A DNA stretch of 64,000 bases from assembly GCA_963169235.1 (NCBI GenBank), contig CAUJCX010000020.1, forward strand, positions 1 through 64,000, given 5' to 3'. Both the position numbers and the translations under genes were made by a program. The DNA is from Actinomycetota bacterium (GTDB lineage Bacteria > Actinomycetota > Thermoleophilia > Miltoncostaeales > Miltoncostaeaceae). Positions 7,397 to 54,618 of the stretch are shown piece by piece (the stretch's first letter is position 1; every line of letters starts with the position of its first letter). Below the pieces are notes generated by a model. That model did not search any database. It saw only the letters and a list, made by a program, of their open reading frames with translations, and was not told where the DNA came from.

Positions 7397-7903
7397 GTGA
7401 GGCGAACACGGCGATGGGTCGTGATAGGCGGCCTCACGGCGGTGGCCGCCCTGGTGGGTCCCCCGCTGGTGGCAGCCCACTACGCGGACGGCCCGGGAGG
7501 CGTGGCGAATGTGGCGGGACGACCGGACAAGGGGTGGCAGTTCATCGTGGACGCGGTGACCCATTCGCGGGACGCGCAGCTGGCCTCGCCGCAGAGCGCG
7601 GACGAGCGCGCCCGCGACGTGTGGGCGGGCGCCCGGGTGCGCAACACCCGTCGCGGCGCGAGCCCGCTGACGGCCCGCGCCGATGACGTGCGCCTGGTGT
7701 GGACCGACGGGGCGTTCGACGTCCCGGTGCCGCCGCACGCCGTGCGGCCCACGCCCGGCAACCGCATCGCCCGGCCCCGCGGCCCGTTCGCCTGGATCGT
7801 GTACGGGCGGCTGCGCGGCGGTCCCCGCCAGATGATCGGGATGCTCGACTACGACTCGGGCACGCGCATCTGGGACATCCGCGACGGGGCCGCGGTTCCG
7901 TGA
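7397..7903 (+). CDS. Membrane-anchored or exported protein, translationally coupled to PBP1A
   Basis: 168 residues from GTG 7397, preceded by GGAGGG at 7381-7386; GTG 7379 is an alternative. An Arg-rich N-terminus (MRRTRRW) is followed by one hydrophobic segment (residues 7-28), either a signal peptide or an anchor. The rest is polar and should lie outside the membrane; I recognise no domain. The stop overlaps the GTG of the downstream penicillin-binding protein (GTGA), so the two are made together. That suggests, but does not show, a role in wall synthesis. Confidence 0.65.
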   Translation: MRRTRRWVVIGGLTAVAALVGPPLVAAHYADGPGGVANVAGRPDKGWQFIVDAVTHSRDAQLASPQSADERARDVWAGARVRNTRRGASPLTARADDVRLVWTDGAFDVPVPPHAVRPTPGNRIARPRGPFAWIVYGRLRGGPRQMIGMLDYDSGTRIWDIRDGAAVP

Positions 7904-10092
7904 GCCGCACCCGCCAGAAGCGGCTGCGCCGCCGCCGCAACACCCGCGAGGCCCGCTTCCACCGCGCCCTGCTGGGAATCGGGGCCGTGGGCGTCGTGGC
8001 CACGGGCAGCGTCGTCGCGGGCGGGCTCGCCATCCACTCCATCGGCGAGAACCTGCGGGCCGACAAGCTGCAGGAGATCAAGCTGGGCCAGAACACCCGG
8101 GTGTTCGACAAGAACGGCGTGCTGATGGGCTACATCGCCAGCACCCAGAACCGCACCGAGGTGCGCAGCTCGCAGATTCCCCAGATGCTGAAAGACGCCA
8201 CCGTCGCCATCGAGGACAAGCGGTTCTTCAACCACGACGGCGTCGACTACTACCGCCTGTTCGGCGCGGCGGTGAAGGACGTGCAGTCGGGCTCCAGCCG
8301 CCAGGGCGGGTCCACCATCACCATGCAGCTGGTGAAGAACCTGCACAAGGGCGGGGCCAAGCGCACGTTCAGCCGCAAGATCGAGGAGGCGTACCTCGCG
8401 TACCAGTACGAGCAGCGGTACTCGAAGGACCAGATCCTCACGCGGTACCTGAACGGCACGTTCTACGGCCACAACGCCGTCGGCGTGCAGGCGGCCGCGA
8501 CGACGTTCTTCGACGAGAAGAAGGTGTCGCGCATCTCGCTGCCGCAGGCCGCGCTCTTGGCCGGGCTGCCGCAGGCCCCGTCGAGCTACGACCCGTTCAT
8601 CAACCCCAAGGCGGCCAAGGAGCGGCGCAACCTGGTGTTGCAGGCCATGGCCGAGCAGGGCTACATCTCGCGCAAGCAGGCCGAGCGGGCCAAGAAGGCG
8701 GGCCTCGGCCTGAAGCGGGGAAAGACGTACACGGCGCCCCTGCGCGAGCAGTACTTCTTCGACTTCGTGCGCACCGACCTGCAGAAGCGCTTCGGCGCCA
8801 AGCGCCTGGCCCAGGGCGGGTTCCGGGTCTATACGACGGTCGACCCGCAGCTGCAGACGGACGCCGAGACGGCCATCAAGAGCCAGATCTACAGCGCCGA
8901 CGGCCCGTCGGCCGCCATCATCATGATGGAGTCCCGCACCGGGCGCATCCGGGCCATGCAGTCGACCCAGACGTACAGCAGCAAGAGCGTCTTCAACTAC
9001 GCCACCGACGCCGTCCGCCAGCCGGGATCGACGTTCAAGACGTTCGTGCTGACGCGCTTCGTCGAGGACGGCTGGGACCCGTACTCCACGCAGTACGTCT
9101 CGCGGCCGCTGAAGGGCGACTTCCCCCCGTACGGCTTCATCGACGTGCAGACGTACTCGCACTCGTACAAGGGCCGCGTGTCGGTCGCGCGCGCGCTGCT
9201 GTCGTCGGACAACTCGGTCTTCTCGCAGATGACCATGGACATGGGGCCCCACGAGGTCGCCGAGACCGCGTACGAGATGGGCATCCCGCGGCGGCGCAAG
9301 CTCAGCGAGTACCCGTCGCTGGGCCTGGGTGGCCTCGAGCACGGCGTCAGCGTGCTCGACATGGCGACGGCGTACAGCACGCTGTCGAACGGCGGTTACC
9401 GCGTGCAGCCGCAGGGGGTGTTCGCCATCGAGCGCCCGGGCGGCAAGAAGATCACGGTGCGGCCCCAGCGCACGAAGGTGCTGAGCGACGGGGTCACGTC
9501 GGTGGTCACCGACATCCTGCACGACAACATCACCGGCGGCACCGGCCAGGCCGTGTCCGGCGTGGCGCCCAACATCGCCGGCAAGACGGGCACCACCGAG
9601 AAGTACGTCGACGCGTGGTTCGCCGCCTACACGCCGTGCTACACCACGGTCGTCTGGATGGGCTACCCCAACGACGACGGCACCACCCGCTACCTGCCGG
9701 GCACCACCGGCGGCAGCACTCCGGCGCAGATCTGGCGCGAGTTCATGACGAAGGTGGTGGCCAACCCGCGCTACCAGTGCAAGTACAAGGACTTCCCGGA
9801 GCCGTCCGACCCGGCCAGCCTCACCACGTACTCGAGCGACCTGACCCGGGCGCCCGACTACAACCCGGAGCCGGAGCCGACCAGCACGACGTCGACCCAG
9901 CCCAGCACCACGGTGCAGGGCGGCGGTGGGGCGGCGCCTCCGCCCGCGGCCACCCCCGCTCCCGCACCGGCCCCGGCTCCCGCACCCACCCCCGCACCGG
10001 CGCCCGCGCCCGCCCCGGCACCCGCACCGGCCCCCGCGCCCGCCCCGGCACCCGCGCCCGATCCCGCCCCGGCGCCCGGGCCCACGGGATAG
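7900..10092 (+). CDS. Class A penicillin-binding protein (PBP1A type)
   Basis: 730 residues. It polymerises lipid II (GT51 domain) and cross-links peptides (transpeptidase domain) at the outer membrane face. A basic cytoplasmic N-terminus precedes one transmembrane helix (about 23-45). GT51 motifs are EDKRFFNHDG (105-114, catalytic Glu) and RQGGSTITMQLVKN (about 134-147). Transpeptidase motifs are S377-T-F-K380, S436-D-N438 and K562-T-G-T565. After about residue 665 comes a Ser/Thr-rich then a long Pro-Ala tail that probably spans the wall. The GTG start at 7900 overlaps the previous stop (GTGA) and gives a compact N-terminus. Confidence 0.95.
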   Translation: MSRTRQKRLRRRRNTREARFHRALLGIGAVGVVATGSVVAGGLAIHSIGENLRADKLQEIKLGQNTRVFDKNGVLMGYIASTQNRTEVRSSQIPQMLKDATVAIEDKRFFNHDGVDYYRLFGAAVKDVQSGSSRQGGSTITMQLVKNLHKGGAKRTFSRKIEEAYLAYQYEQRYSKDQILTRYLNGTFYGHNAVGVQAAATTFFDEKKVSRISLPQAALLAGLPQAPSSYDPFINPKAAKERRNLVLQAMAEQGYISRKQAERAKKAGLGLKRGKTYTAPLREQYFFDFVRTDLQKRFGAKRLAQGGFRVYTTVDPQLQTDAETAIKSQIYSADGPSAAIIMMESRTGRIRAMQSTQTYSSKSVFNYATDAVRQPGSTFKTFVLTRFVEDGWDPYSTQYVSRPLKGDFPPYGFIDVQTYSHSYKGRVSVARALLSSDNSVFSQMTMDMGPHEVAETAYEMGIPRRRKLSEYPSLGLGGLEHGVSVLDMATAYSTLSNGGYRVQPQGVFAIERPGGKKITVRPQRTKVLSDGVTSVVTDILHDNITGGTGQAVSGVAPNIAGKTGTTEKYVDAWFAAYTPCYTTVVWMGYPNDDGTTRYLPGTTGGSTPAQIWREFMTKVVANPRYQCKYKDFPEPSDPASLTTYSSDLTRAPDYNPEPEPTSTTSTQPSTTVQGGGGAAPPPAATPAPAPAPAPAPTPAPAPAPAPAPAPAPAPAPAPAPDPAPAPGPTG
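9951..10088 (+). repeat. Low-complexity Pro-Ala repeat in the PBP tail
   Basis: A run of CCC/CCG-GCN codons encodes alternating Pro-Ala pairs over about 45 residues at the C-terminus of the penicillin-binding protein. Such tails act as extended wall-spanning linkers. The repeated DNA is prone to slippage, so its length may vary between strains. Confidence 0.8.
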
Positions 10093-10114
10093 CGCCCGGG
10101 CGACGTCCGGCCCG

Positions 10115-11740
10115 TTGACCGGCCTGCGCCGCCCCGCCGCCGCCGGCCTGGTGGCGGCCGTGCTGGCGTGGGTGACGCACGTGTGGGGTCCCCCGGGGGG
10201 CGACGCAGCCGCACACCTGTACCTCACCGGCCTGTGGAGCGACCACGGCTGGCTGATGTGGGACAACCTCTGGTACGCGGGTCGCTACGCGCAGGTCAAC
10301 TACAGCCTGGTGTACTACCCGGCGGCGGCCCTGCTGTCGGCTCCCGTCGTGAGTGCCCTGGCGGCCGGTGCGGCGGCGTGGGGGTTCGGCGTGCTCGTCG
10401 CCCGCCGCTGGGCGTGGGCGGGCCCGTGGCCCGCGTGGGCGTTCGCGCTGCTCGCGCCGCTGCCGGTGATCGCGGGCACGTACCCGTTCATGCTGGGGAC
10501 CGCGTTCGGCGTGTGGTCGCTGGTGATGCTGGCGTGCCGGCGTCCCTGGGCGGGCGTGGCGCTGGCCGCCGCCACCACGCTGGCCAGCCCCCTCGCCCTC
10601 GTGTTCGTGCTTTTGGGGGCGGCTGCGGGGGGCGTCGCCCTGGGCCGCGACGGCCTGCGCCGGCGCGACGCGCTGGTGGCGGCCGGGGGCCTCACGGCCG
10701 TGCTCGCCGCGCAGTACCTGTGCACGCGGGCGTTTCCGTCGCCCGACGCGCGGTACCAGTTCGACGCCCGCGATGCGTGGGCCATCGGGGCGCTGGTGGT
10801 GGCCGGGGTCGCGCTGACGGCGCGCAACGCGCGGGCGCGCGACCTGACGGCGTTCTTCGCCCTGTACGGCGCGGCCACGCTGGGCGCGCTGGTGGTGACG
10901 ACGCCCGTCGGGGGCAACCTGGTGCGCATCACCCTGGTGGCGGGCGTGCCACTGGCGCTGGTGGCCGCGGCGGCCGCTCCCCGCTCGCGTGCGTGGATGT
11001 CCGTGGGCGTCGTGGTCGTCGCCGCCGCGCTGGCCTGGCAGGTGACGCCCACGTGGACAGGCGCCCCCGCGGCGTGGCGGGCGCGGGCGTCCGACGCGGC
11101 GTACTGGCAGCCCATGCGCGACTTCCTGGCGGCCCACCCCGACCCCGGGCACCGGGTGCACGTGGTGGCCACGCGCGACAACTGGGAGGCGTACCACCTG
11201 GCCTCCCACGGCGTTCCGCTCACCCGGGGCTGGTTCCGCCAGGACGACTTCCCCGTGAACGCCCCGCTGTACGCGCGCCCGCTGACGGGCGACGCGTACC
11301 GGGCCTGGCTGCGCGACCTGGCGGTGCGCTACGTGCTGGTGCCGGACGATCCCCGAGACGCCGGGGGCGACGAGGAGGCCCGGCTGCTGGCCGGTGGCCT
11401 TCTGCCCCGGGCGGCCCGCCTGCCGGGGTGGACCGTGTACGAGGCGGCCGACACCCCCCCGCTGGCGACGCCCGCGTCGCGCGTGGGCGTGGTGGCCGTC
11501 ACGCCCGGGCGGGTGACTCTGCGCGTCGACCGGCCCGGCGTGTACCGGGTGCGCATGCGCTACAGCCCGTACCTGGAGGCCGACAACGGCGCATGCGTCA
11601 CCGCGCGCGCACCGTGGGGGGTGAAGCTGGCGGCCACGCGGGCGGGCATCGTGCACATCGGCTTCCGGGTGACCCCGCAGCGGGTGCTCGACACCCTGGT
11701 GGGGCACGACACGGCGTGCGTCCGCGGCCGCGGGGTGTAG
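10115..11740 (+). CDS. Polytopic membrane protein, GT-C-like
   Basis: 541 residues from TTG 10115; no better start lies between the PBP stop and the first helix. About ten hydrophobic helices fill the first two thirds. The first extracytoplasmic loop carries WGPPGGDAAAHLY, with an acidic residue placed as in GT-C glycosyltransferases. The last 200 residues form a soluble domain (DNWEAYHLASHG; YVLVPDD), as in large actinobacterial membrane glycosyltransferase-like proteins. It may use polyprenyl-linked sugars outside the membrane, but the assignment rests on topology only. Confidence 0.65.
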   Translation: MTGLRRPAAAGLVAAVLAWVTHVWGPPGGDAAAHLYLTGLWSDHGWLMWDNLWYAGRYAQVNYSLVYYPAAALLSAPVVSALAAGAAAWGFGVLVARRWAWAGPWPAWAFALLAPLPVIAGTYPFMLGTAFGVWSLVMLACRRPWAGVALAAATTLASPLALVFVLLGAAAGGVALGRDGLRRRDALVAAGGLTAVLAAQYLCTRAFPSPDARYQFDARDAWAIGALVVAGVALTARNARARDLTAFFALYGAATLGALVVTTPVGGNLVRITLVAGVPLALVAAAAAPRSRAWMSVGVVVVAAALAWQVTPTWTGAPAAWRARASDAAYWQPMRDFLAAHPDPGHRVHVVATRDNWEAYHLASHGVPLTRGWFRQDDFPVNAPLYARPLTGDAYRAWLRDLAVRYVLVPDDPRDAGGDEEARLLAGGLLPRAARLPGWTVYEAADTPPLATPASRVGVVAVTPGRVTLRVDRPGVYRVRMRYSPYLEADNGACVTARAPWGVKLAATRAGIVHIGFRVTPQRVLDTLVGHDTACVRGRGV

Positions 11741-11750
11741 AAAGCCGGTC

Positions 11751-12668
11751 ATGGCGCCGTCCGACGACACCCTGCGCATCGCGACGTGGAACCTCTTTCA
11801 CCTGCAGGACGAAGGCGGCGGGCCGATCGGTTTCGGCACGGTGGTGCGGCGCCGCCACCGCGAGCGCGACGGGCTCGTCCACCTCAACCGCAAGCACCTC
11901 GATCCGGCCGCCGACGTGCTGCGGCGCATCGGCGCCGACCTGGTGCTGTTGCAGGAGGTGCCCCCGCGCGCCGTGCCGCGCCTGGGACGCCGCCTGGGGA
12001 TGCACGCGGCGTGGGCGGCGCGCACCGGCCCGTTCGTGGGGCCCGCGTGGCTGCGCGACGCCGTCGGTGACTGGAACCCCGACCTGGTGCGCACGCACGA
12101 GGGCAACGCGAACGCCGTGCTGGTGGGCCCGCGCCTGGTGCGCGTGCCCGGCAGCGTCCGCCGCCTGCGCCTCAACCCGTGGCGCCAGGTGCTCGGGGCG
12201 TGGCGCGCGCACGGCACCGACCTGCGCTGGCGCGAGATGCTGCGCTGGCTGGGCGAGCCGCGCGTCGCGGTGGCCGGCCAGGTGCGCCGCCCCGGCGGGC
12301 CGCCCGTGACCGTCGTCAGCCTGCACCTGCACAACGCCCGCGGCGAGACCGAGCGGGCGCACGAGGTGGGGCGCCTCATCGAGGCCCTGCGCAACGTGCC
12401 GGGGCCGCTGATCGTGGGCGGAGACTTCAACCTGATGCCGTCGTCCCCGCACATGGCGCGGCTGGCCGAGCTGGGCCTGGTGGACGAGCACGGCGACCGC
12501 CGCATGAACATCGACCGCGTCTTCACCCGCGGGGTGGAGGTGGTGGAGCCCGCCCGGCGCCTGGAGCCCTCGGTGCGCGAGTTCGCGTGGACCGGGCGCA
12601 GGGGACACGGCCGCGTGCGCGTCAGCGACCACGACCCCGTCGTGGTCACCGTGCGGCTGCCCGCCTGA
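11751..12668 (+). CDS. Endonuclease/exonuclease/phosphatase-family protein
   Basis: 305 residues. The EEP fold is shown by the N-terminal RIATWNLFHLQDEGG (metal-binding Asn), LLQEVPPRAV (metal Glu), VVSLHLHNARGE, GGDFNLMPSS (catalytic Asp-Asn) and the C-terminal VSDHDPVVV with catalytic Asp-His. Substrate cannot be read from sequence: the family includes DNA-repair nucleases, sphingomyelinases and inositol phosphatases. No signal peptide is visible. It starts 10 bases after the membrane protein, so the two are probably co-transcribed, and it converges with the minus-strand operon. Confidence 0.85.
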   Translation: MAPSDDTLRIATWNLFHLQDEGGGPIGFGTVVRRRHRERDGLVHLNRKHLDPAADVLRRIGADLVLLQEVPPRAVPRLGRRLGMHAAWAARTGPFVGPAWLRDAVGDWNPDLVRTHEGNANAVLVGPRLVRVPGSVRRLRLNPWRQVLGAWRAHGTDLRWREMLRWLGEPRVAVAGQVRRPGGPPVTVVSLHLHNARGETERAHEVGRLIEALRNVPGPLIVGGDFNLMPSSPHMARLAELGLVDEHGDRRMNIDRVFTRGVEVVEPARRLEPSVREFAWTGRRGHGRVRVSDHDPVVVTVRLPA

Positions 12669-12670
12669 CG

Positions 12671-13852
12671 CTACGGGCCCTCGATGCGCATCTCGCCCAC
12701 CGCGATGACGCACAGCACCAGGCTCGCCACCAGCACCCACGTGCGGCGCCGCTCGCCCCCCTCGTCCATCCATTCGGCCGCCGGCCACACCAGTGGGAAC
12801 GCCATCAGGCCGAACCGCGTCATCGACTCGAACGACCCGCTCGAGAGCGGGAGTGCCAGCACGGCCGCGCTGTAGATGAACCACGGGTTGCGCCACCCGC
12901 CCTCCATGCGCCACAGGCGCCGCAACAGGAACGCGTAGCCCAGCGTGGGCAGGCCGTCGCGCACCACGGGCGCCCACAGCCCCACCACGTCCAGGTTGAA
13001 CGCGGCCCGGACGGCGTCGCCGATCTCCACCGGCAGGTACGTGAGCACCCCGATTCCCAGCGGCCCCCGCCGCCATGCCGCCTGGGCGACGAACGGCAGG
13101 TCCCACGCCCCCCGGGTGATCTGCATGGCCGCGAGGAAGCCGGCCAGCGTCAGCGCGGCGGGCGCCATCACCAGGGCCACCCGCCGCACCTGGGCGCTGC
13201 GGGGGCCGCCCGCCTGCCACGCGAACACCGCCACCAGCAGCGCCACCAGCACGCCCGGCGGCCGGCCGAGGGTGGCGACGGCGGCGGCGGACGCCGCCCA
13301 TCCCCAGCGCCGGTGCTGCGCCAGGATCGCCGCACCCACGGCCATCGCGAGGGTGAGGGCCTCGGTGTAGGCCATCGACGCGTAGACGCTGGGCGGGAAC
13401 GCCGCGAACGCCCACACCACCAGGCGCGCCCGCGCGGCCCCGAAGCGCTCGGCACTCAGGCGGTGGATGCCCACCAGCGCCCCGAGGAACGCCACGTTGT
13501 TGACGGCCACGGCGAACACGAACGGGTTGACGTGGAGCGCGATGCCCACCTTCATCACCATGGGGACCAGCGGGAAGAACGGCAGGTTGGTGAACAGCAC
13601 TCCCGCGAGGCCGGTGTAGTCGTCGTACCCGCGGGTGGCGATGTCGAGGTACCAGCTGGTGTCCCACCCGCCCAGCAGGGCGAGCCAGCGCGGCACCGCC
13701 GGGTCGACGCCCAGGTGGGGGACGCCCAGCGCGTACGACAGCACCACCGTGGCCACGAGGATGAGCCCGCGCGTCACCGCCCACGCCACCAGCGGCTCGC
13801 GCCACTGCACCGGGCGCCGGCGGGCCACCTCCTGCGCCCGTCCGGCGGTCAC
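12671..13852 (-). CDS. PIG-V-like polytopic mannosyltransferase family protein
   Basis: 393 residues from GTG 13852, overlapping the stop of the upstream gene (GTGA). About nine helices. The first external loop carries GGWDTSWYLDIATRGYDDY and FFPLVPMVMK, the WD...WY..IA..GY...FFP pattern of the PIG-V/GPI mannosyltransferase-2 family, whose Asp is catalytic in this GT-C group. It should transfer a sugar from a polyprenyl-phosphate donor on the outer membrane face. It is last in the seven-gene minus-strand operon, whose gene at 18162 can make such a donor. Confidence 0.8.
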   Translation of the reverse strand: MTAGRAQEVARRRPVQWREPLVAWAVTRGLILVATVVLSYALGVPHLGVDPAVPRWLALLGGWDTSWYLDIATRGYDDYTGLAGVLFTNLPFFPLVPMVMKVGIALHVNPFVFAVAVNNVAFLGALVGIHRLSAERFGAARARLVVWAFAAFPPSVYASMAYTEALTLAMAVGAAILAQHRRWGWAASAAAVATLGRPPGVLVALLVAVFAWQAGGPRSAQVRRVALVMAPAALTLAGFLAAMQITRGAWDLPFVAQAAWRRGPLGIGVLTYLPVEIGDAVRAAFNLDVVGLWAPVVRDGLPTLGYAFLLRRLWRMEGGWRNPWFIYSAAVLALPLSSGSFESMTRFGLMAFPLVWPAAEWMDEGGERRRTWVLVASLVLCVIAVGEMRIEGP

Positions 13853-15360
13853 GGCGCGTCCTGCCGCGACACGCGCCGGAACACCACCACGCCGTCGCGC
13901 GAGAAGACCTGGCGGAACGCGGGATCGGCCCGCAGGCCCGCCATGTAGGGGATGAACGCCCACTCGCTGACCAGCTGGTCGCGCACGTACGGGCGCTTCT
14001 GGTCGACGATGACCCACTGGGCGTCCTTCACCACCGGGAACGAGTAGATGTGCCGGCGGTTCGACAGGCGGGCCCCGAACGGGTTGCCGGCCGACACCGC
14101 GGCGCCGTCGTCGATGACCGCCACGCCCGCCGCCATCGCGTCGACGTGCGGCGAGCCGGAGTACTCCCAGCGCCGCTCCTGCGAACCCCCGGGGACGTGG
14201 AACCACACGGGCAGCGGCCCCTGCCGCCAGCCGCCCGCGAGCACCGCCACCAGGAGCGCCGCGGCCCAGAGCCCGGCGGGCCGCAGCGGCACGGGCAGGC
14301 CGGGCAGCGCGCGCACCCGCGCGAGGCCGCGCAGCGTCGCGGCGATGAGGAACGGCGTGGCGACGGCCGTGTACTGGAACTGCACCGAGAACTGGGGCCA
14401 GTAGTCGGTGAGCAGGTTCATCGCCAGCTCGGGCAGGGCGGGGAGGGCCAGGAGCGGGGCCGCTGCCGGCAGGAACATCAGCGGCAGGAAGATGGCCAGC
14501 AGGTACAGCAGCTTCGGCTCGGTCGTGACGGTCTCGAGCACGCGCAGCGGGTCGGTGACCAGGGTGCGCGGCAGCGATGTGAGGCTGCCGCCGAGGTGGT
14601 CGTAGCGGTTGCTGAAGGGGTTGCCGCCGCTGGGCGCGAAGTGCGGGATGATCACGGTCATGCACACGGCGGTCCACGCGACGCCGGTGACGGCCAGCAC
14701 GACGCCCCACGCGCGGCGCCCGTGGGCGACCGCCGCGTACAGGCCCAAGAGGGCGATGGCGAGCCCCACGTGTTCCTTGCAGATGAGGGCCAGGCCGGCG
14801 GTGGTGAACAGCACGCCCGGGCGGCCCTCCTCCACCGCCCAGATGGCCCACGCCAGCAGCGGCGTCGCGAACACCACCGCGTGGAACTCGGTGAGCACCG
14901 ACCACAGCTGCGGCGGGTACAGCAGGTACACCACCGCCCCGGCCACCGCGAGCGCGTCGGAGGCCAGCCACCGGCGGCCCAGGAGGAACACGGGGATGGC
15001 GCCGGACGCGACGGCGAGCACCTGCACCACCAGCAGCATCTCGGGGCGCGGCACCAGCAGCCACAGCGGCGCCAGCAGCACCAGGATGGGGTCGACGTGG
15101 GCGCCCAGGCGCACGAACTGGGTGCCGGCCGTGTCGGTGCTCTCCAGCGGCCTCCCCTGCGTGGTGCTCCACACGGCCTGCACCATGTTGCCCAGGTCGA
15201 AGCGCCCGCTCCAGAAGAAGCGATAGCGCAGCACCGCCAGCCACGACAGCGCGACGCTGTACGCCGCGATCGCGGCCCACAGCACCAGCCGGGCCGGGTC
15301 GGCCCGCAGCGCGTCGGCACGGTCGCGCCACGCGTGCGCGTCGAGGGCGGGCAGCCTCAT
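13849..15360 (-). CDS. DUF2079 polytopic membrane protein, GT-C-like
   Basis: 503 residues from ATG 15360, overlapping the upstream stop (ATGA). It matches the DUF2079 pattern: an early loop with RFDLGNMVQAVWSTTQG, then GAHVDPILVLLAPLW, and EFHAVVFATPLL in a later loop. About eleven helices precede a C-terminal extracytoplasmic part (WEYSGSPHVD; WVIVDQKRPYVRD). DUF2079 proteins resemble GT-C glycosyltransferases and are common in high-GC actinobacteria, but their reaction is not established. Genes for a polyprenyl-P-sugar synthase and a flippase-like protein lie in the same operon. Confidence 0.85.
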   Translation of the reverse strand: MRLPALDAHAWRDRADALRADPARLVLWAAIAAYSVALSWLAVLRYRFFWSGRFDLGNMVQAVWSTTQGRPLESTDTAGTQFVRLGAHVDPILVLLAPLWLLVPRPEMLLVVQVLAVASGAIPVFLLGRRWLASDALAVAGAVVYLLYPPQLWSVLTEFHAVVFATPLLAWAIWAVEEGRPGVLFTTAGLALICKEHVGLAIALLGLYAAVAHGRRAWGVVLAVTGVAWTAVCMTVIIPHFAPSGGNPFSNRYDHLGGSLTSLPRTLVTDPLRVLETVTTEPKLLYLLAIFLPLMFLPAAAPLLALPALPELAMNLLTDYWPQFSVQFQYTAVATPFLIAATLRGLARVRALPGLPVPLRPAGLWAAALLVAVLAGGWRQGPLPVWFHVPGGSQERRWEYSGSPHVDAMAAGVAVIDDGAAVSAGNPFGARLSNRRHIYSFPVVKDAQWVIVDQKRPYVRDQLVSEWAFIPYMAGLRADPAFRQVFSRDGVVVFRRVSRQDAP

Positions 15361-16289
15361 CGCCGCCGCGTCCCCATCACCACGAGGCCCACGAACACCA
15401 GCTCCACCACGGTGAGCAGCAGGCGGCACGACACCGACAGCGCCACCGCCACCCCCTGGGGCACGTGCTGGGCCAGGGCCAGGGCGAACGCGCCGTCGCG
15501 CACGCCCAGGCCGGACGGGAAGATGATGAGCACCATCGACAGCGTGAACGCGAACAGGAACGCGCCGCCCACGAACGCCGCCGAGCCCACCGACGGCCCC
15601 GCCAGGGCCCGCATGGCCAGCCAGACGCCGACGGCCAGGAGCAGCGCCGTGAGCGCGTACCACGCCACCAGCGCCAGCACGTCGCGGCGCCGGATGAGGC
15701 GCTCCAGCGGCGGACGGCGCACGGCGGCCAGGGCCCGCGCCGACAGCGGCCCGAACACGCGCGGGTGCAGCGCCACCAGCAGCACCGGCACGGCCAGCAC
15801 GGCCAGCACCGCCCAGCGCGAGCCGACGGCCCCGTACGCGGCGAGGAAGCCGACGGACCCGATGGCGGCGACGCCCAGCCCCAGGGACTGCTCGTACACC
15901 AGGGCGGCCGCCGACACGCGCCGCGCGACGCCGTGGTCGCGTCCCATCTCGAGGCGCCCCACCACCATCAGCACGCTGCCCGGCACGTAGCGCCCCAGGA
16001 GGGACGTGGCCCACACCCGCAGCATCGCCCGGCGCGAGGGACGCGGTGACGGCGCGAGGGCCTCCACCACGCCCACGTACCCCAGCCCGCTGGTGGCGAA
16101 GAACACCAGCAGCACGGCCACCGAGGCGGCCAGAAGCGGCACGTCGACGTCCCACTGGTAGCGGCGCACCTGCGACCAGCCGTCGACCAGCGCCCACGCC
16201 AGGAACGCCAGCACCACGGCCGCGGCGGCGTACCCCAGGCGTCGGCGCCAGCGCCCGCGCCCGGGGGTGGGACTCTCGGCGTCGGTCAC
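15357..16289 (-). CDS. Flippase-like (UPF0104/LPG-synthase TM) protein
   Basis: 310 residues from GTG 16289, overlapping the methyltransferase stop (GTGA). Eight or so helices show the pattern of the lysylphosphatidylglycerol-synthase transmembrane region (YbhN/AglD): LLGRYVPGSVLMVVGRLEMGRD, ALVYEQSLGLG, and near the end IIFPSGLGVRDGAFALAL. It has no soluble aminoacyltransferase domain. Relatives next to glycosyltransferases are thought to move or act on lipid-linked sugars. That role fits here but is inferred. Confidence 0.82.
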   Translation of the reverse strand: MTDAESPTPGRGRWRRRLGYAAAAVVLAFLAWALVDGWSQVRRYQWDVDVPLLAASVAVLLVFFATSGLGYVGVVEALAPSPRPSRRAMLRVWATSLLGRYVPGSVLMVVGRLEMGRDHGVARRVSAAALVYEQSLGLGVAAIGSVGFLAAYGAVGSRWAVLAVLAVPVLLVALHPRVFGPLSARALAAVRRPPLERLIRRRDVLALVAWYALTALLLAVGVWLAMRALAGPSVGSAAFVGGAFLFAFTLSMVLIIFPSGLGVRDGAFALALAQHVPQGVAVALSVSCRLLLTVVELVFVGLVVMGTRRR

Positions 16290-17062
16290 GGTCCGGGCCG
16301 GCGCGCGGTGGCGATGAAGCCCATGTACCCGGGCTTGCGCCCCAGAAACAGGCGGTCGACGGCGAACGCGGCCCGCAGCACGCGGGCGACGGCGGGGCGC
16401 GGCGGGCCCATGGCGTCCCCCGCGGTGGACTCCCCGGCCCGGTCGAGCCGGCGGGCCAGCATGGGCCGATAGACGTGCCGGTGGTAGAAGCCGGTCACGG
16501 GGAAGCCCCAGGCGGTCACCCGCACGTCGTCGAGGCCTGCGCCCTGCAGCAGGTCGGTGAGCCCCTGCTGGGTGTACCGGCGGCGGTGGCCCGCCCACTT
16601 GTCGGTCCAGTCGTAGCGCCGCGGACCCGCCGGGACGCTCACCACCAGCACGGCGCCGGGGCGCATCACGCGGGCCAGCTCGGCTGCCGCGGCGACGTCG
16701 TCGTCGAGGTGCTCGAGCACCTCCGCGCACACCACCACGTCGGCGCACGCGGCGGGCAGCGGCAGGCGGTGAATGTCGCCGGTGAGCGCCCGGTGGGGGC
16801 CGCCGGGCGCGGCGTCGAGCATGCGCCCCAGGCGCGCCACGAACGCGTCGCTGCCGTCCACCGCCGTCACCCGGAAGCCGTGGCGCGCGAGGCGCAGCGC
16901 CATGCTGCCCGCCCCGGCCCCGGCGTCGACCGCGTCACCGCCGGGCAGCGGCCCCAGCCGCGCGAGGGCGTCCACCAGCAGCGATTCCCGGAACTCGTGC
17001 CGGGGGCCGTACAGCTCGGGAGCGTCCCCCCACGTGTGCTCGTCGCGTGCCGGGGCGCTCAT
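16286..17062 (-). CDS. Class I SAM-dependent methyltransferase
   Basis: 258 residues from ATG 17062, overlapping the GT4 stop (ATGA). SAM-binding motif I is AVDAGAGAGSMALRL, with the acidic ribose-binding residue in VTAVDGSD; motif II/III is DVVVCAEVLEHLDDD, and a post-motif follows at MRPGAVLVVSVP. The C-terminal half (GHRRRYTQQGL; GFYHRH) is typical of methyltransferases in polysaccharide clusters. It may methylate a sugar or the lipid carrier; the substrate cannot be told. Confidence 0.88.
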   Translation of the reverse strand: MSAPARDEHTWGDAPELYGPRHEFRESLLVDALARLGPLPGGDAVDAGAGAGSMALRLARHGFRVTAVDGSDAFVARLGRMLDAAPGGPHRALTGDIHRLPLPAACADVVVCAEVLEHLDDDVAAAAELARVMRPGAVLVVSVPAGPRRYDWTDKWAGHRRRYTQQGLTDLLQGAGLDDVRVTAWGFPVTGFYHRHVYRPMLARRLDRAGESTAGDAMGPPRPAVARVLRAAFAVDRLFLGRKPGYMGFIATARRPGP

Positions 17063-18165
17063 CGGCGGCAGGCCTCCACGGCCGCCACCAGGCGGGACGC
17101 GACCGCCTGCGGGGTTCCCTCCCGCACGTACGTGGCCCGGGCGCCCTCGCCCAGGCGGGCGCGCAGGCCGGCGTCGCCGCCCAGCCGTCCCAGCGCCGCG
17201 GCCAGGGCGGCGGGATCGCCCACCGGCACCAGCAGGGCGTCGTCGCCGTCGCTCAGCACCTCGCGTGAACCGGGGGTGTCGGCGGTCACCACGGGACGCC
17301 CCACGGCCAGCGCCTGCCACACCTTGTTGGCGACCACGCGGGACGCCTTGTCGCTGGCGCCGAACACCCCCAGCGCGATGTGGTGGCGCGCGATCACGTC
17401 GCCCAGCTCGTGGTACGGCACCCACGGGATGTGCGTGACGCCGGCCGGGGGGTCGCGGCGCAGTTCGTCGTCCAGCCAGCCCCGCAGCTGGCCGTCGCCG
17501 ACGATGGTGAGGAGTGGCGTGCCCGGGCGGCGGGCGGCGGCCAGCACGGTCGCGAGGCCGTGCAGGGGCGCCAGCTTGCCCACGAACAGCGCCCGCGCGG
17601 GCCCGTCCGGGGCCGGCGCCGACGGGAACGCGGCGGGTTCGGCGCCGACGGGTACGGCGACGGCCCGTCCCGGCGGCAGACCGAACGCGCGGGTGAACCA
17701 GCGGGCGTTGGCCTCGGTGTCGGTCATCACGACGTCGGCCGACCGCGCGGCGAAGCGGTCGATGCGGTGCCCCACGGCGGCGCCCGCCCGGCCGCCCACG
17801 CCCCGGTCGCCGCCGAGCGTGTCGGACAGCGAGATCATCAGGTCGGCCACCAGCGGCACGCGGCGGCGGCGGGCCACCCAGCGCCCCAGGGGCATGTCGG
17901 GCTGGGCGGGATACCCCACGACCACGACGTCGACGGGTCCGGCGGCCCGCTCGCGACGGGCCAGCGACGCCCACGCCCCGGCCGCGCGCGCGCCGGTGCG
18001 GGCCAGTGACGCCGGCGCGAGGAACGCGCCCGTCTTGTGGCGCGTGCGCTCCCACAGCGGCACGTGGCACTCCACCACGTCGTGCCCCAGCGCCCGCAGG
18101 CCCTCGCGCAGCACGGCGCCGCGCGGGTAGTCGCGCTCGTAGGTCCCCAGCCACAGCCACCTCAC
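17059..18165 (-). CDS. GT4-family glycosyltransferase
   Basis: 368 residues from GTG 18165, overlapping the GT2 stop (GTGA). Rossmann-like N-domain (WLWLGTYERDYPRG; DVVVVGYPAQPD; DLMISLSDTLGGD) and a donor-binding C-domain (RALFVGKLAPLHG; IVGDGQLRGWL; ANKVWQALAVGRPVV). In the last motif the usual acidic pair of GT4 is not obvious. It is a cytoplasmic, nucleotide-sugar-dependent enzyme that probably adds a sugar to the glycan built by this operon. Confidence 0.87.
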   Translation of the reverse strand: MRWLWLGTYERDYPRGAVLREGLRALGHDVVECHVPLWERTRHKTGAFLAPASLARTGARAAGAWASLARRERAAGPVDVVVVGYPAQPDMPLGRWVARRRRVPLVADLMISLSDTLGGDRGVGGRAGAAVGHRIDRFAARSADVVMTDTEANARWFTRAFGLPPGRAVAVPVGAEPAAFPSAPAPDGPARALFVGKLAPLHGLATVLAAARRPGTPLLTIVGDGQLRGWLDDELRRDPPAGVTHIPWVPYHELGDVIARHHIALGVFGASDKASRVVANKVWQALAVGRPVVTADTPGSREVLSDGDDALLVPVGDPAALAAALGRLGGDAGLRARLGEGARATYVREGTPQAVASRLVAAVEACRR

Positions 18166-19106
18166 CGGCGCACCTCGCGCACCCGCGTGGCGGCCTCGTC
18201 GTCGCGCGAGCGCTGGTGGTGGCGCTGCACCATCTCGCTCATCAGGCCGATGGTGAGGAACTGCATCCCCACCAGGATCAGCAGCACGCCCAGCAACAGG
18301 AGGGGACGGTTGCCGATGGCATGGCCCGAGAACTTCAGCACGGTGAGGTAGGCCGAGACCACGACGCCCAGGGCCAGCATCACCAGGCCGAGGCCGCCGA
18401 ACAGGTGCATGGGCCGGTGCCGGTAGCGGCCGAGGAACGTGATGGTGAGCAGGTCGAGCAGCCCCCGCAGGTAGCGCTCGAGGCCGTACTTGCTCTTGCC
18501 CGCCGTGCGGGGCCGGTGGTGCACGCCCAGCTCGCCGACGCGGAAGCCCTCGTTCGCCGCCAGCACGGGGATGTAGCGGTACTGGTCGCCGCTGAGCGCG
18601 AGGGCGTGCACCACCTCGGCGCGGTACGCCTTGAAGCCGCAGTTGAGGTCGTGCAGGTCGACGCCCGACACCCACCGGGTGACGGTGTTGAACACCTTGG
18701 ACGGGATGCGCTTGCCGACGGGGTCCTGGCGGTCCACCTTCCAGCCGCTCACCAGGTCGAGGCCGCCGTCGAGCTCCTGGAGGAACCGCGGGATCTCGGC
18801 GGGGTCGTCCTGCTGGTCGCCGTCCATGGTGATGACGACGCTGCCGCGGGCGTGGCGGAAGCCCGCCATCAGGGCCTCCGACTTGCCGAAGTTGCGGCGC
18901 AGCGTGACGACCCCCACCTCGGGCTCGCTGTCCACCAGGCCGGCCAGCACCTCGGCCGTGCCGTCGCGGGAGCCGTCGTCCACGAACAGCACCTCGAACG
19001 ACCGCCCCTGGGCGCGCATCACGTCCAGGAGCTCAGCCGTGAGCGGCGCGACGCTGTCCCGCTCGTCGTACACGGGGATGATGACGGAGACCTCGGGCGG
19101 GTTCAT
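18162..19106 (-). CDS. GT2 polyprenyl-phosphate sugar synthase (GtrB/DPM1-like)
   Basis: 314 residues from ATG 19106, overlapping the stop of the M28-like gene (ATGA). GT2 catalytic motifs: VSVIIPVYDERDS, VLFVDDGSRDGT, and ITMDGDQQDDPAEI with the DxD metal site. LNCGFKAYR and SKYGLERYLRG follow, as in GtrB and dolichol-phosphate mannose synthases. Two C-terminal helices lie near 232-260 and 268-292. It should transfer a sugar from a nucleotide donor to undecaprenyl phosphate, providing the donor for the GT-C proteins downstream. Confidence 0.92.
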   Translation of the reverse strand: MNPPEVSVIIPVYDERDSVAPLTAELLDVMRAQGRSFEVLFVDDGSRDGTAEVLAGLVDSEPEVGVVTLRRNFGKSEALMAGFRHARGSVVITMDGDQQDDPAEIPRFLQELDGGLDLVSGWKVDRQDPVGKRIPSKVFNTVTRWVSGVDLHDLNCGFKAYRAEVVHALALSGDQYRYIPVLAANEGFRVGELGVHHRPRTAGKSKYGLERYLRGLLDLLTITFLGRYRHRPMHLFGGLGLVMLALGVVVSAYLTVLKFSGHAIGNRPLLLLGVLLILVGMQFLTIGLMSEMVQRHHQRSRDDEAATRVREVRR

Positions 19107-20866
19107 CGGCTGATCCGGGGGAGTCGGGCCTTCGGGACGTTGACGCGGCGCGGCACCCGGGGCGGGCGGTCGCTGTGCCGCATCAGCCCCTTGCGGTAGC
19201 GGATGACGACCAGGACGGCCATCGACCACACGGCACAGGTCAGAAGCAGCACGAGCATGGGCCAGATGCTGCCGCGCGCGCCACCCGCCGTGGTGGCAAT
19301 GAGATACCAGGCGGCGAACAGCGGGTTACGTCCCAGCTGGGAGCCCACCGACACGCACAGGGCCAGCAGCGGCAGCAGCCCCGCGACGCCCAGCGCGATC
19401 GCCTGCCAGCGCCGGGTGACGGACGTGGCGATGAGCACGGCGTGCGAGGCCGGCAGCGTAAGCACGAGCGCGAACGGCGTGACGAGCCAGGCCAGCAGCG
19501 ACACCACGCCCAGCACGACGAGCGCGGCGGCGGCCTCGCTGGCGGGCGGGGCGCTCATGCGGCGCAGCGACCGGTGGGTGAGCAGCCACACCACGCCGGC
19601 GAGGGCCAGCGCCAGGGCCACCGACACCGCCTCGCGGCTGCCGAAGCCGACGAACCGCGGCAGCGGGGGCACGCCCGCGGACGGCGGCGGCAGCATCCCC
19701 AGGAGCGCCATCAGGTGCAGCACGAACGCCCCCGTCAGAAGCGGGGCTCCGCGCAACACGGCGGCGCGCAGGCCGGGGGCCATGCTCACCCCGCTGCGGC
19801 GCAGGCGGACGAACGCGTCCACGGCGGTCACCAACAGGGGCAGCGCGAACAGCAGCAGCACCACGCGCAGCACGCCGGGACGCAGCTCCTTGCCCGACAG
19901 GAGCACGCCCGCCTCGGGGGCCGGAAGCGGTAGGCCGTTGTCGACGAGGGTCATCAGCGTGATCACCACGTTGCCGGCCTGCCGGAGGCGGGACGCGTCG
20001 ATCTCGTTCACCGGGCGGGCGGGCCCGTCGGGCCGAGACGACAGCGTGACCGCCGGGATGCCCTTCTCGACGAACGGCGCCTGGTCGCCGAACGTCTGCG
20101 GCACCGCGAAGCGCAGAAGCTGCGTCCACAGGCCGGGGGCGGGCGCCGCCTTCGCGCCGCTCCACGGCATGCTGGCGCGGGCGATGTCGGCGAAGCCGAG
20201 CGACTGCAGGGGCGCGCGCGAACCGGGCCAGATCCATACGGGACCCTCGCGCTCGCCGAGGCCGTCCAGCACGATCACCGCCGAGATGTGGAAGTCGGAG
20301 AACCGCGACAGGAACCAGCGGGCGCCGGCGTTTCCGGTGGTGCTTCCGGACGTCGAGACGAACAGCATGGGGCGCCGGCGGGCGCTGGCCGCCTCGATGT
20401 TCGCGACGCCCAGCATCACGGCCGTGCTGGACGATCCGGACGTGACGCCGGGGCCCGTGTCCCGCGGCGCCACCACCACGATGCCGCCCCGGTCGATGCC
20501 GTCGGTGGTGCCGGGCAGCACGGCGTAGACGTTCACCATGCGCCGCAGCTGGCCGTCCACCCGCGCGGTGAACACCTGGCGGCGTACCTTCGGGCGGACC
20601 CCCGACACCGACGGCAACGCGCGCAGGCGTTGCTCGACGAACGTGGCCGCCACCGCCTCGGTGGCGTGCTCGCCCGGCGGCCGCCGGGGCACGAGTCCGC
20701 GCAGCGCGGACGCGGTGCGCAGCATCTCGGCACCGTCCGCCCCGGGCGGGTTCGCGGGTCGCTCGAACCCGGCCTCGTCGGCCGGCGGCTGCAACGAGAG
20801 CAGCGCGACGATGATGGCCACCCCTGCGATGAGCCAGGCGGTGCGGTAGAGGCGTGCGTTCAGCAA
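19103..20866 (-). CDS. M28-like pseudo-peptidase with C-terminal TM domain (GAA1-like architecture)
   Basis: 587 residues from TTG 20866, which places a signal-anchor helix at residues 8-26. Residues about 40-310 look like an extracytoplasmic M28 aminopeptidase domain, but the metal ligands seem lost. The HxD site reads APRDTG, the bridging-Asp loop (normally NDNASG) reads VTSGSSSTA, and the Glu-Glu motif reads STSGSTTGNAG. The C-terminal 250 residues hold about seven helices. N-terminal anchor, inactive external M28 domain and multi-helix tail are also the layout of eukaryotic GAA1, the GPI-transamidase subunit. It is the first gene of the glycan operon. A relative of membrane M28 peptidases with another function remains possible. 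Confidence 0.75.
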   Translation of the reverse strand: MLNARLYRTAWLIAGVAIIVALLSLQPPADEAGFERPANPPGADGAEMLRTASALRGLVPRRPPGEHATEAVAATFVEQRLRALPSVSGVRPKVRRQVFTARVDGQLRRMVNVYAVLPGTTDGIDRGGIVVVAPRDTGPGVTSGSSSTAVMLGVANIEAASARRRPMLFVSTSGSTTGNAGARWFLSRFSDFHISAVIVLDGLGEREGPVWIWPGSRAPLQSLGFADIARASMPWSGAKAAPAPGLWTQLLRFAVPQTFGDQAPFVEKGIPAVTLSSRPDGPARPVNEIDASRLRQAGNVVITLMTLVDNGLPLPAPEAGVLLSGKELRPGVLRVVLLLFALPLLVTAVDAFVRLRRSGVSMAPGLRAAVLRGAPLLTGAFVLHLMALLGMLPPPSAGVPPLPRFVGFGSREAVSVALALALAGVVWLLTHRSLRRMSAPPASEAAAALVVLGVVSLLAWLVTPFALVLTLPASHAVLIATSVTRRWQAIALGVAGLLPLLALCVSVGSQLGRNPLFAAWYLIATTAGGARGSIWPMLVLLLTCAVWSMAVLVVIRYRKGLMRHSDRPPRVPRRVNVPKARLPRISR

Positions 20867-20932
20867 TGGGTGACGTGTCGGGCCAGGGCGCGAAGGGTAC
20901 CGGCGAATCGGCGGGTGATGGCCGCCGGCAGG

Positions 20933-20955
20933 CGCGGCCGGGAGTCTCGGCCGCG
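20933..20955. promoter_or_regulatory. 8-base inverted repeat before the TreT-like gene
   Basis: CGCGGCCG and CGGCCGCG flank a 7-base spacer (GGAGTCT) in the divergent space between the M28-like and TreT-like genes. It could be an operator or an RNA hairpin over the start region. In DNA this GC-rich an 8-base repeat can arise by chance. Confidence 0.3.
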
Positions 20956-22262
20956 TGGTCCGTAGGATGGGCCCTCGGCGGCCGGTCAGGCGCCGCCGGG
21001 TCCACGGTGAGGTTACGCGGTTCGTGCTGCGCGAGATGCAAGTGGGACGGCGGCGACTGGCCGACTACCGATCGCTCGTCGCCCGGGATCTGCTGGCGGA
21101 GGTGCGCGAGCTGGCCACGGCCGTGCGTGGCCTGCGGGTGTGCCACGTCAGCGCGCACGGCACCCGCGGCGGCATCGCGGAGCTGCTGGTGGGCATGGTC
21201 CCCCTGCTGAACGACGTGGGCGTCGACGCGTCGTGGCGCGTGCTGGGCGGCAGCGACGAGTACTTCCGCGTCGGCAGGGCGCTGCACGACGGCCTGCAGG
21301 GTGCGCCCACCGCCATCAGCGACCACGACATGCGCGTGTACGAACGGCACAGCCTGCTGAACGCGGGCGGCATGACCGGCCACTTCGACGTGGTGATCGC
21401 CCATGATCCCCACCCGCTGGGACTGCGCCAGGGGCTCGACTCGGACGGCGACACCACGTGGATCTGGCGCTGCCACCTGGACCTGTCCGAGCCCGATCCG
21501 GCGGCCGTCGAGCGCGTGCGTCCGCTGCTGGATCCGTTCGACCTGGGCGTGTTCCACATGCCGTCGTACCTCGCGCCCAACCTGGTGCGCGACCCCGTGG
21601 TGATCCCGCCCGCGATCGACCCGCTGACCCCCAAGAACATGCTGCTGGCGGCCGACGACGCCGCGCACGTGGTGTCGCGGTTCGGCGTCGACCCCACGCG
21701 CCCGCTGATGACGCAGGTGTCGCGTTTCGAGCCCTGGAAGGACCCGATGGGCGTCATCGACGCGTTCCGCCTGGCGCGCGAGGAGGTGCCGGGGCTGCAA
21801 CTGGCCCTGGTGGGGCCGCGCCGCACCGCCGAGGCCAGCGGGGAGGACCACTTCCAGCGCACGCGCGACCACGCCGGGGGCGACCCGGGCATCCACCTGC
21901 TGTCCGACGAGCAGGACCTCGGGCCCGTGGAGGTGAACGCGTTCCAGACCCAGGCCGACGTGGTGGTGCAGAAGTCGCTGCGCGAGGGCTTCGGCCTCAC
22001 CGTGACCGAGGCGCTGTGGAAGGCGCGCCCCACGGTGGCGTCCGACGTCGGCGGCATCCCGCGGCAGATCACGGACGCCGTCACCGGCTACCTGGTCGAC
22101 AGCCCCGAGCGGTGCGCCGCCCGGGTGGTCGACTCCATCCGGGACCCGGCGTGGGCGCACGAGATGGCGCTGCGCGGTAAGCAACGCGTACGCGACGAGT
22201 TCCTCACACCACGACTTCTGCGCGACTGGCTGGGCCTGCTGCGTCGCGTGGCGATGCGTTAG
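20955..22262 (+). CDS. TreT-like trehalose synthase (GT4)
   Basis: 435 residues from GTG 20955; ATG 20967 and GTG 21024 are alternatives. The family-typical EVTRF and RRRLADYRSL lie near the N-terminus, which argues against the latest start. HVSAHGTRGGIAELLVGMV, VDASWRVLGGSDEYF and LHDGLQG match the TreT signature, and IWRCHLDLSEP, QVSRFEPWKDPMG and EGFGLTVTEALWK (GT4 E-x7-E) follow. TreT joins NDP-glucose and glucose to give trehalose. The next gene is an OtsA-like enzyme, so both probably serve trehalose or a related glucoside. The acceptor is inferred from family only. Confidence 0.82.
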   Translation: MVRRMGPRRPVRRRRVHGEVTRFVLREMQVGRRRLADYRSLVARDLLAEVRELATAVRGLRVCHVSAHGTRGGIAELLVGMVPLLNDVGVDASWRVLGGSDEYFRVGRALHDGLQGAPTAISDHDMRVYERHSLLNAGGMTGHFDVVIAHDPHPLGLRQGLDSDGDTTWIWRCHLDLSEPDPAAVERVRPLLDPFDLGVFHMPSYLAPNLVRDPVVIPPAIDPLTPKNMLLAADDAAHVVSRFGVDPTRPLMTQVSRFEPWKDPMGVIDAFRLAREEVPGLQLALVGPRRTAEASGEDHFQRTRDHAGGDPGIHLLSDEQDLGPVEVNAFQTQADVVVQKSLREGFGLTVTEALWKARPTVASDVGGIPRQITDAVTGYLVDSPERCAARVVDSIRDPAWAHEMALRGKQRVRDEFLTPRLLRDWLGLLRRVAMR

Positions 22263-22269
22263 GAGCGCG

Positions 22270-23751
22270 ATGACCTCCCCTTCCACGCCCACGGGCGACC
22301 GCCTCATCCTGGTGAGCAACCGGGGCCCGGTGACGCACGAACGCGACGGCGATGAGCGCGTGACCACGCCGGGCGGCGGCGGGCTGGTGACGGCCCTCGC
22401 GGGCCTGACCGAGCACACCCCGGTGGTGTGGATCTCGGCGGCCATCAGCGACGAGGACGTGGCCGTGCAGGAGGAGGCGGGCGACGGGTCGTTCGCCATC
22501 GACGGCCTGGGCGTCGACACGCGCGGCCGTTTCGTGCTGATGGACCCCGGCGTCTACGAGCAGTACTACAACGTGATCGCGAACCCGATCCTGTGGTTCA
22601 TCCAGCACTACCTGTGGGACCTGTCGAACGTGCCCGACATCCGCCGCCAGGAGATCGAGGCGTGGGAGGACGGGTACCTGGTCGCCAACGAGGCGTTCGC
22701 CGACGCCGTGGTGCGCGAGATCGACCACCAGTCCGACCCCGTGGTGCTGCTGCACGACTACCACCTGTACACGGCGCCCGCGTCCATCCGGCGCCGGCAC
22801 CCCGACGCGTTCCTCCACTTCTTCATCCACATCCCGTGGGCCCAGCCGGACTACTGGTGCGTGCTACCCCCCGAGATGCGCCGGGACATCATCGGCGGCC
22901 TGCTGGCCAACGACATCGTGGCGTTCCACACCCACCGGTACGCCCGCAACTTCCTGTTGTGCTGCCAGGACCTCATGGGCCTGCGGGTGGACTACGAGCG
23001 GATGTGCGTCGAGTGGGAGGGCCGGGAGGTGTGGGCCCGCTCGTACCCCATCTCCATCAACGCCCGCAGCCTCGAGCAGTTCGCCGCCGGACCGGAGGTG
23101 GCCCGCGAGGAGGGCCCCATCCTGCGTCGCCGCCGCTCGCACCTGATCGTGCGGGTCGACCGCACCGACCTGTCGAAGAACGCCATCCGCGGCTTCAAGG
23201 CGTTCGACGTGTTCCTCGACGAGCACCCCGAGTACCGCGAGGAGATCACGTTCCTCGCCCTGCTGCAGCCGTCCCGGCAGGACGTCCCCGAGTACGTGGA
23301 GTTCACCCAGAAGATCCTCGAGGTCGTGTCGTACATCAACACGAAGCACGGCAACACCGACTGGATGCCCATCGACCTGCGCATCGAGCAGAACCTGGCC
23401 CGGGCGTTCGCGTCGTTCAAGCACTACGACGTGCTGATGGTGAACGCCATCTACGACGGCATGAACCTGGTGGCCAAGGAGGGTCCGCTGGTGAACGAGC
23501 GCGACGGCGTGATGATCCTGAGCGAGAACACCGGCGCCCACGAGGAGCTGGGATCGTTCGCCATCACCGTCAACCCGTTCGACGTGCGCGCGCAGGCCGA
23601 CGCCATCCACATGGCGCTCACGATGCCCCCGGACGAGCGGGCCGGGCGCCTGGAGGCCATCCGCCGCATCGTGCACGAGAACGACGTCGGCAAGTGGCTC
23701 GAGCACCAGCTGTCGGACATCGCCCGCAAGCGCGACGGCGCCCACGCCTGA
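22270..23751 (+). CDS. otsA: GT20 trehalose-6-phosphate synthase-like protein
   Basis: 493 residues. GT20 features: VSNRGPV (VSNRLPV in classic OtsA), GGGLVTAL, LLHDYHLY, FFIHIPWAQPDYW, then VRVDRTDLSKNAIRGF, LQPSRQDVPEY and DGMNLVAKEG with LSENTGAHEELG. OtsA makes trehalose-6-phosphate from UDP- or other NDP-glucose and glucose-6-phosphate. The Leu-to-Gly change in the first motif and Asp-Leu-Ser-Lys in place of Asp-Tyr-Ser-Lys mark a divergent branch, so glucosylglycerol-phosphate synthase or another specificity is possible. It starts 7 bases after the TreT-like gene. No otsB phosphatase is in the window. Confidence 0.85.
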   Translation: MTSPSTPTGDRLILVSNRGPVTHERDGDERVTTPGGGGLVTALAGLTEHTPVVWISAAISDEDVAVQEEAGDGSFAIDGLGVDTRGRFVLMDPGVYEQYYNVIANPILWFIQHYLWDLSNVPDIRRQEIEAWEDGYLVANEAFADAVVREIDHQSDPVVLLHDYHLYTAPASIRRRHPDAFLHFFIHIPWAQPDYWCVLPPEMRRDIIGGLLANDIVAFHTHRYARNFLLCCQDLMGLRVDYERMCVEWEGREVWARSYPISINARSLEQFAAGPEVAREEGPILRRRRSHLIVRVDRTDLSKNAIRGFKAFDVFLDEHPEYREEITFLALLQPSRQDVPEYVEFTQKILEVVSYINTKHGNTDWMPIDLRIEQNLARAFASFKHYDVLMVNAIYDGMNLVAKEGPLVNERDGVMILSENTGAHEELGSFAITVNPFDVRAQADAIHMALTMPPDERAGRLEAIRRIVHENDVGKWLEHQLSDIARKRDGAHA

Positions 23752-54512: not shown

Positions 54513-54586
<74 letters not shown>

Positions 54587-54618
54587 CTCGTAACGTGGTG
54601 CTACGCGGATGGCTGCAA

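Follow-up and report, generated by a model that had tools for sequence, protein, structure and literature searches.

A GAA1-like membrane protein with a degenerate M28 domain heads a predicted lipid-linked glycan operon in Miltoncostaeales

Does a bacterial operon that begins with a GAA1-like protein encode a GPI-like pathway? The question is raised by a locus in an Actinomycetota bacterium of the order Miltoncostaeales (class Thermoleophilia), on positions 1 to 64,000 of contig CAUJCX010000020.1; these 64,000 nt are referred to below as the window. A preliminary description of the sequence had proposed such a pathway for a run of seven genes joined by 4-base overlaps. All seven ORFs are present as claimed, in a minus-strand run from 20866 to 12671, and six of six junctions are 4-bp overlaps of the form ATGA or GTGA (Table 1). 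The foremost gene, encoding the membrane protein that we call M28L, starts with TTG at 20866; it is followed by GT2 (ATG, 19106), GT4 (GTG, 18165), the methyltransferase (ATG, 17062), the flippase-like gene (GTG, 16289), the DUF2079 gene (ATG, 15360) and the PIG-V-like gene (GTG, 13852). The gene 3' of the operon, at 11751-12668, is convergent with it and belongs to the exonuclease/endonuclease/phosphatase family. Beside it, an ORF devoid of any Pfam match (9926-11740) overlaps the end of the penicillin-binding protein ORF, and in several relatives both of these genes keep their place behind the operon. The sole Rfam match within the window is a tRNA-Ile (GAT) at 54513-54587.

Table 1. The M28L operon and its conserved flanks in the window.
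Feature	Coordinates	Strand	Basis
M28L, 587-aa GAA1-architecture pseudo-M28 membrane protein	19103..20866	-	TTG start; profile, predicted model, conservation
GT2, ArnC/GtrB/DPM-type polyprenyl-phosphate sugar synthase	18162..19106	-	Pfam and solved-structure relatives
GT4 glycosyltransferase, weak PimA-like match	17059..18165	-	Pfam and solved-structure relatives
SAM-dependent methyltransferase	16286..17062	-	Pfam
LPG_synthase_TM-family membrane protein, candidate flippase	15357..16289	-	Pfam
DUF2079 membrane protein	13849..15360	-	Pfam
Weakly PIG-V-like polytopic membrane protein, candidate GT-C enzyme	12671..13852	-	Sub-cut-off Pfam
Gap between M28L and divergent TreT, 88 bp, presumed promoter region	20867..20954	.	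Conserved divergent OtsA/TreT neighbor
TreT-type trehalose synthase, conserved divergent neighbor of M28L	20955..22262	+	Pfam, synteny
OtsA-like trehalose-phosphate synthase, conserved neighbor	22270..23751	+	ORF, synteny; name provisional
Penicillin-binding protein ORF, conserved convergent neighbor past the operon	7699..10092	+	ORF, synteny; name provisional

Most of the labels given earlier to the genes behind M28L hold in Pfam. The GT4 protein matches GT4 families at 50-58 bits, with PimA as its nearest solved structure, weakly; the methyltransferase matches Methyltransf_11 (69 bits), the flippase-like protein LPG_synthase_TM (43.5 bits) and the DUF2079 protein its namesake family (221 bits). 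The GT2 protein, described before as a polyprenyl-phosphate-sugar synthase, lives up to that name: it matches PF00535 at 102 bits, and its nearest solved structures are ArnC, GtrB (sll0501) and dolichol-phosphate mannose synthase, so that the window carries the type of synthase expected of a polyprenyl-phosphate-sugar pathway. The PIG-V-like label of the last gene is weak; some similarity is there, at 15.5 bits versus a cut-off of 22.4. Together with the DUF2079 protein, which we take to be GT-C-like, this set resembles the known lipid-linked glycan operons with ArnC/GtrB/DPM-type donors, where GT-C-like and flippase-like genes likewise accompany a GT2 synthase, and the proposal of a lipid-linked glycan operon is supported. 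We know of no such operon that begins with a pseudo-M28 protein.

M28L itself is borderline as an M28 protein by HMM and clear by fold. Its score against PF04389 was 21.0 bits versus a cut-off of 21.3, and a second search gave 24 bits, above the cut-off. A phmmer search of PDB sequences with the single protein returned nothing useful, and an M28L profile found M28 ectodomains only. In an AlphaFold model built from 23 orthologues (mean pLDDT 88.8, pTM 0.88), a transmembrane helix at residues 4-23 precedes an ectodomain of about residues 45-310 and seven predicted C-terminal helices spanning 330-558 (330-358, 363-388, 410-436, 441-462, 464-480, 486-511 and 534-558). Hydropathy analysis gives eight hydrophobic segments, in agreement with one N-terminal and seven C-terminal helices, and so the N-anchor and the approximately seven C-terminal helices of the preliminary description are borne out by both approaches.

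When the model was compared with the PDB, the top five matches were GPAA1 chains of GPI transamidase (8imy, 7w72, 8imx, 7wld and 9ub7, identified by entry titles, chain lengths and fold). These matches are full-length, with E values of 2.5e-15 to 1.7e-12 and TM scores of 0.55-0.65 whichever chain length is used for scaling. Next in rank after GPAA1 come soluble M28 enzymes, with a query TM score of about 0.35 that corresponds to the ectodomain alone; the ectodomain matches secreted M28 proteins such as 1cp7 and 7d18 with a TMt of about 0.7. We also modeled a sortase-linked member from another family (L124; pLDDT 91.8), which is 29% identical to the M28L of the window in the class alignment. 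The identical five GPAA1 chains took ranks 1-5 (best E 1.5e-14), and over both models the TM scores against them range from 0.52 to 0.65. The predicted models thus show the GPAA1 architecture, in which eight membrane helices accompany an M28-like external domain, and for two divergent members the GAA1 layout proposed earlier is what the models give. The view that M28L is GAA1-like in overall architecture, with a dead M28 domain on eight predicted helices, is strongly supported.

The active site is degenerate. Relative to active M28 relatives, the His of the HxD motif is replaced by P134, the bridging Asp by S143 and the Glu-Glu pair by S175 and T176; M28L does not have the catalytic Glu and metal ligands of an active M28 enzyme. 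The earlier claim that every ligand is replaced went too far in one respect, since the Asp of HxD (D136) is kept. Also kept is D201, the Asp of the LD motif, as read from the comparison with active relatives and not from the 73-sequence alignment used for the site survey, whose reference is out of register at metal sites 4 and 5; the last His may have been lost. That survey covered 33 M28L sequences of the order and 40 from outside it. The catalytic Glu is absent in 73 of 73, and the Glu ligand is missing in nearly all. Site 1, the former His, is Pro in 33 of 33 sequences of the order and mixed in the 40 outgroup sequences (His 15, Ala 7, Pro 6, Asn 4, Gln 3, Ser 3, Asp 2). Seven members of family f3 (L116, L117, L118, L120, L134, L175 and L180) retain the His and the bridging Asp and have no Glu-Glu pair; judged from their sequences, they represent an intermediate stage of site loss. 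Because of these members and the variation at site 1, an active M28 ancestor that lost its site step by step is the most likely origin of the family. Around the former site, R135, D136, S171 and Q262 (window numbering) each reach 90% conservation or more in a set of 44 diverse members, which suggests that the groove probably retains a role.

Most GPAA1 proteins also have Pro at metal site 1 (PMC7522609), a likeness to the M28L of the window. Within the M28L family, only the order has this Pro throughout, and given the mixed outgroups its sharing with most GPAA1s looks convergent. Common descent of M28L and GPAA1 was considered as the source of the shared Pro and is not favored, the outgroups carrying seven different residues at this site.

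Other features bear on the relation to GPAA1. GPAA1 has eight membrane helices and lacks a zinc motif. A 2022 report found no recognizable homology of its helix domain to known folds, and mutation of candidate residues was without effect, leading the authors to suggest that it may help recruit substrate (PMC9098846). M28L shares the 1+7 membrane helices of the model, the external M28 fold, the lack of a zinc motif and the full-length fold match; it differs from GPAA1 in its bacterial host and its glycan or sortase neighbors, in staying below the PF04114 cut-off, and in that the order offers it no PIG-K/C13 partner. The layout, moreover, is not unique to GAA1. The membrane M28 proteins L229 and L230 (one in G446, the other in G345), which form a group that we presume to be of Streptomyces type, resemble M28L in their N-anchor, M28 domain and some seven to eight C-terminal helices, with eight to nine hydrophobic segments; they differ in keeping HxD, Asp and Glu-Glu, hence an intact metal site, and in carrying additional C-terminal sequence beyond the helices. 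By hhalign, M28L aligns with this group at E 7e-20 over profile columns 37-518 of 624, a span covering the ectodomain and entering the helix bundle. Its homology to the membrane M28 superfamily thus extends beyond the ectodomain. Because these active proteins are homologous into the bundle, the layout appears to belong to a broader set of membrane M28 proteins, and GPAA1 may be a second branch of that set to have lost activity. M28L has its ectodomain fold in common with secreted M28 aminopeptidases and glutaminyl cyclases (1cp7, 7d18), which are metalloenzymes with an intact site and no helix bundle. ERMP1/Fxna and yeast Pff1 are alike by description, combining an M28 domain with a C-terminal multi-helix region; they are catalytically intact and carry extra domains.

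M28L was found in 40 of 42 genomes of the order and in 247 of 299 sampled Thermoleophilia genomes, nearly always in one copy. Since it is conserved across both order and class, it is real and neither a chance ORF nor an annotation artefact. Family f6 gave no match among its listed genomes, and the viral contigs that were searched for relatives gave none. A search of the phylum outside Thermoleophilia returned almost solely ectodomain matches, together with one G446 protein aligned over most of its length. M28L is in two pieces in three genomes (G018, G006 and G015); the splits at G018:C1:3331714-3333407, in a single-contig assembly, and at G006:C171:30401-32167 could reflect a frameshift, decay or sequencing error.

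Within the order, glycan genes lie 3' of M28L in 15 of 20 loci, and DUF2079, the marker of the operon, was found in 34 of 42 genomes. Six of the eight genomes with no detected DUF2079 have kept M28L, among them G004 (99% complete) and G025 (98% complete). In G025 just a GT2 remnant lies behind M28L (L045:9873-10133), which suggests that the glycan operon was lost and M28L retained. An obligatory link between M28L and the glycan genes is rejected on these grounds. Sortase was detected in 11 of the 42 genomes and not in the other 31, and no sortase was seen beside M28L in the order loci. The genome of the window has one detected sortase domain, about 156 kb from M28L; it is the C-terminal domain of a 939-aa fusion with Ig-like domains (L234:8876-11695, G000:C20 near 176875-179694).

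Outside the order, we compared 40 loci from ten families (L115-L134 and L175-L194). The class-wide locus typically consists of OtsA-TreT-HtrA-kinase-regulator genes divergent from M28L, with or without a sortase gene behind it, and of ThiL-like, IF-1 and penicillin-binding protein genes convergent on the other side; the OtsA-TreT-HtrA-kinase-regulator cluster is constant across most Thermoleophilia families sampled. Two-component genes (a response regulator and/or histidine kinase, divergent beside M28L) occur in 31 of the 40 loci, penicillin-binding protein genes in 29, trehalose genes in 28 and HtrA in 24. In families f2 and f4, M28L has different surroundings. The window has this class-wide locus minus regulator, HtrA and sortase, plus the glycan operon.

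Sortase, a cysteine transpeptidase, is the next gene found downstream of M28L in 15 of the 40 loci (families f3, f7, f8, f9 and f11), and the other 25 have no adjacent sortase. Two of the adjacent genes were confirmed in Pfam as PF04203 (108-110 bits), and in L117 the M28L and sortase genes overlap by 4 bp. Comparison of coordinates gave more pairs, for example in G271, G247, G259, G227, G050, G080, G150 and G266. At L120:8771-11753, the sortase match is split over two reading frames, as if by a frameshift. GT2-GT4-DUF2079 stands behind M28L-sortase in f3, GT2 following in three f3 loci; 37 of the 40 loci have no GT2 downstream of M28L. The earlier suggestion to look for a linked transpeptidase-like partner thus found one in many relatives and none at the M28L loci of the order. 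As most order genomes have no detectable sortase, an obligatory M28L-sortase link is also rejected.

A real GPI-like pathway, the central claim of the preliminary description, is not supported. No Peptidase_C13 (PF01650, PIG-K-type) was found in the 42 order genomes, which leaves M28L there with no PIG-K/GPI8 transamidase as partner. The Gaa1 family (PF04114) gave no match over the cut-off in 79 genomes, the M28L of the window included, the one weak M28L match being in G087 (E 0.0098). The PIG-V match, below its cut-off, and the persistence of M28L in six genomes with no DUF2079 detected likewise speak against the pathway claim. We found no paper on bacterial GAA1 relatives in the literature searched. 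According to a 2025 preprint, GPI transamidase derives from Asgard archaea (PMC12338589); this agrees with the complex having arisen in prokaryotes and does not point to Thermoleophilia.

What, then, might M28L do? We propose, at a probability of about 45%, that it is a non-enzymatic envelope scaffold, which at this locus has been drawn into a polyprenyl-phosphate-sugar pathway. A protein that has lost its catalytic residues and kept its groove would most simply bind without catalyzing. The putative degenerate peptide-binding groove would hold a protein or peptide end, the helix bundle would hold a lipid-linked acceptor or a partner enzyme, and a separate enzyme, in many relatives perhaps the adjacent sortase, would join or modify what M28L presents. 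In Miltoncostaeales, M28L would be co-translated with the enzymes for a polyprenyl-phosphate-linked, probably methylated glycan and would help to place that glycan. The proposal draws on the suggestion that GPAA1 helps to recruit substrate beside a cysteine transamidase (PMC9098846), and on the position of M28L next to sortase in part of the class and, in the order, next to lipid-linked-sugar enzymes. The data show the modeled architecture, the lost catalytic site, the conservation and the gene neighborhoods; that M28L binds and acts as a scaffold, and which way the glycan chemistry runs, we infer, the positional data supporting association only.

Against a scaffold, no partner is universal, and the frequent two-component, HtrA and trehalose neighbors could mean regulation. 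M28L would then be an envelope-stress regulator: it would detect peptide ends or fragments of the cell wall and govern the divergent two-component system and the HtrA protease. Two-component genes are indeed its most constant neighbors outside the order, and HtrA is frequent there, but in the window and in those loci of the order that have the trehalose genes immediately next to M28L no such genes stand between, and M28L is still kept and tied to glycan genes; the divergent placement may reflect merely shared cell-envelope regulation, and we consider a regulator unlikely. Could M28L instead be a dedicated subunit of the glycan pathway, a chaperone or a chain-length or lipid-binding partner of GT-C enzymes, with no other role? 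The six overlaps that make one operon, the glycan genes behind M28L in most order loci and the GT2/GT4/DUF2079 genes in f3 all agree with this. Its persistence in G004 and G025, the latter with its GT2 remnant alone, and the 37 out-of-order loci with no GT2 downstream make so exclusive a role decidedly improbable.

Two further readings find still less favor. One keeps the GPI analogy as a Thermoleophilia counterpart of GPI transamidase: M28L and a cysteine transpeptidase, the sortase in part of the class, would join proteins to a glycan that the neighboring glycosyltransferases build on a polyprenyl or phospholipid carrier, and the GAA1 fold would have bacterial relatives with a related job. 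The predicted architecture, the linked sortases and the DPM-type synthase adjoining M28L are in its favor, and sortase-like chemistry has been proposed for PIG-K (PMC9098846). It is nevertheless a long shot, for there is no C13 peptidase in the order and no Gaa1 match over the cut-off, sortase was not detected in most order genomes, and sortase and glycan genes occur together with M28L in only three f3 loci. Nor do we know of a glycolipid-linked protein in these bacteria. The other reading, that M28L is still an enzyme with a rebuilt active site, can point to the four strongly conserved residues around the pocket and to the seven f3 members with His and bridging Asp; with the catalytic Glu absent from every relative surveyed, the Glu ligand from nearly all, and Pro at site 1 throughout the order, we think it highly unlikely.

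The M28L family, spread through Thermoleophilia and nearly always in single copy, is predicted by the models to have the full-length build of GPAA1. It offers a simple system in which to study the function of a dead M28 domain carried on eight helices, and the origin of GAA1, and the sortase neighbor in its relatives makes the idea of a protein-attachment scaffold directly testable.
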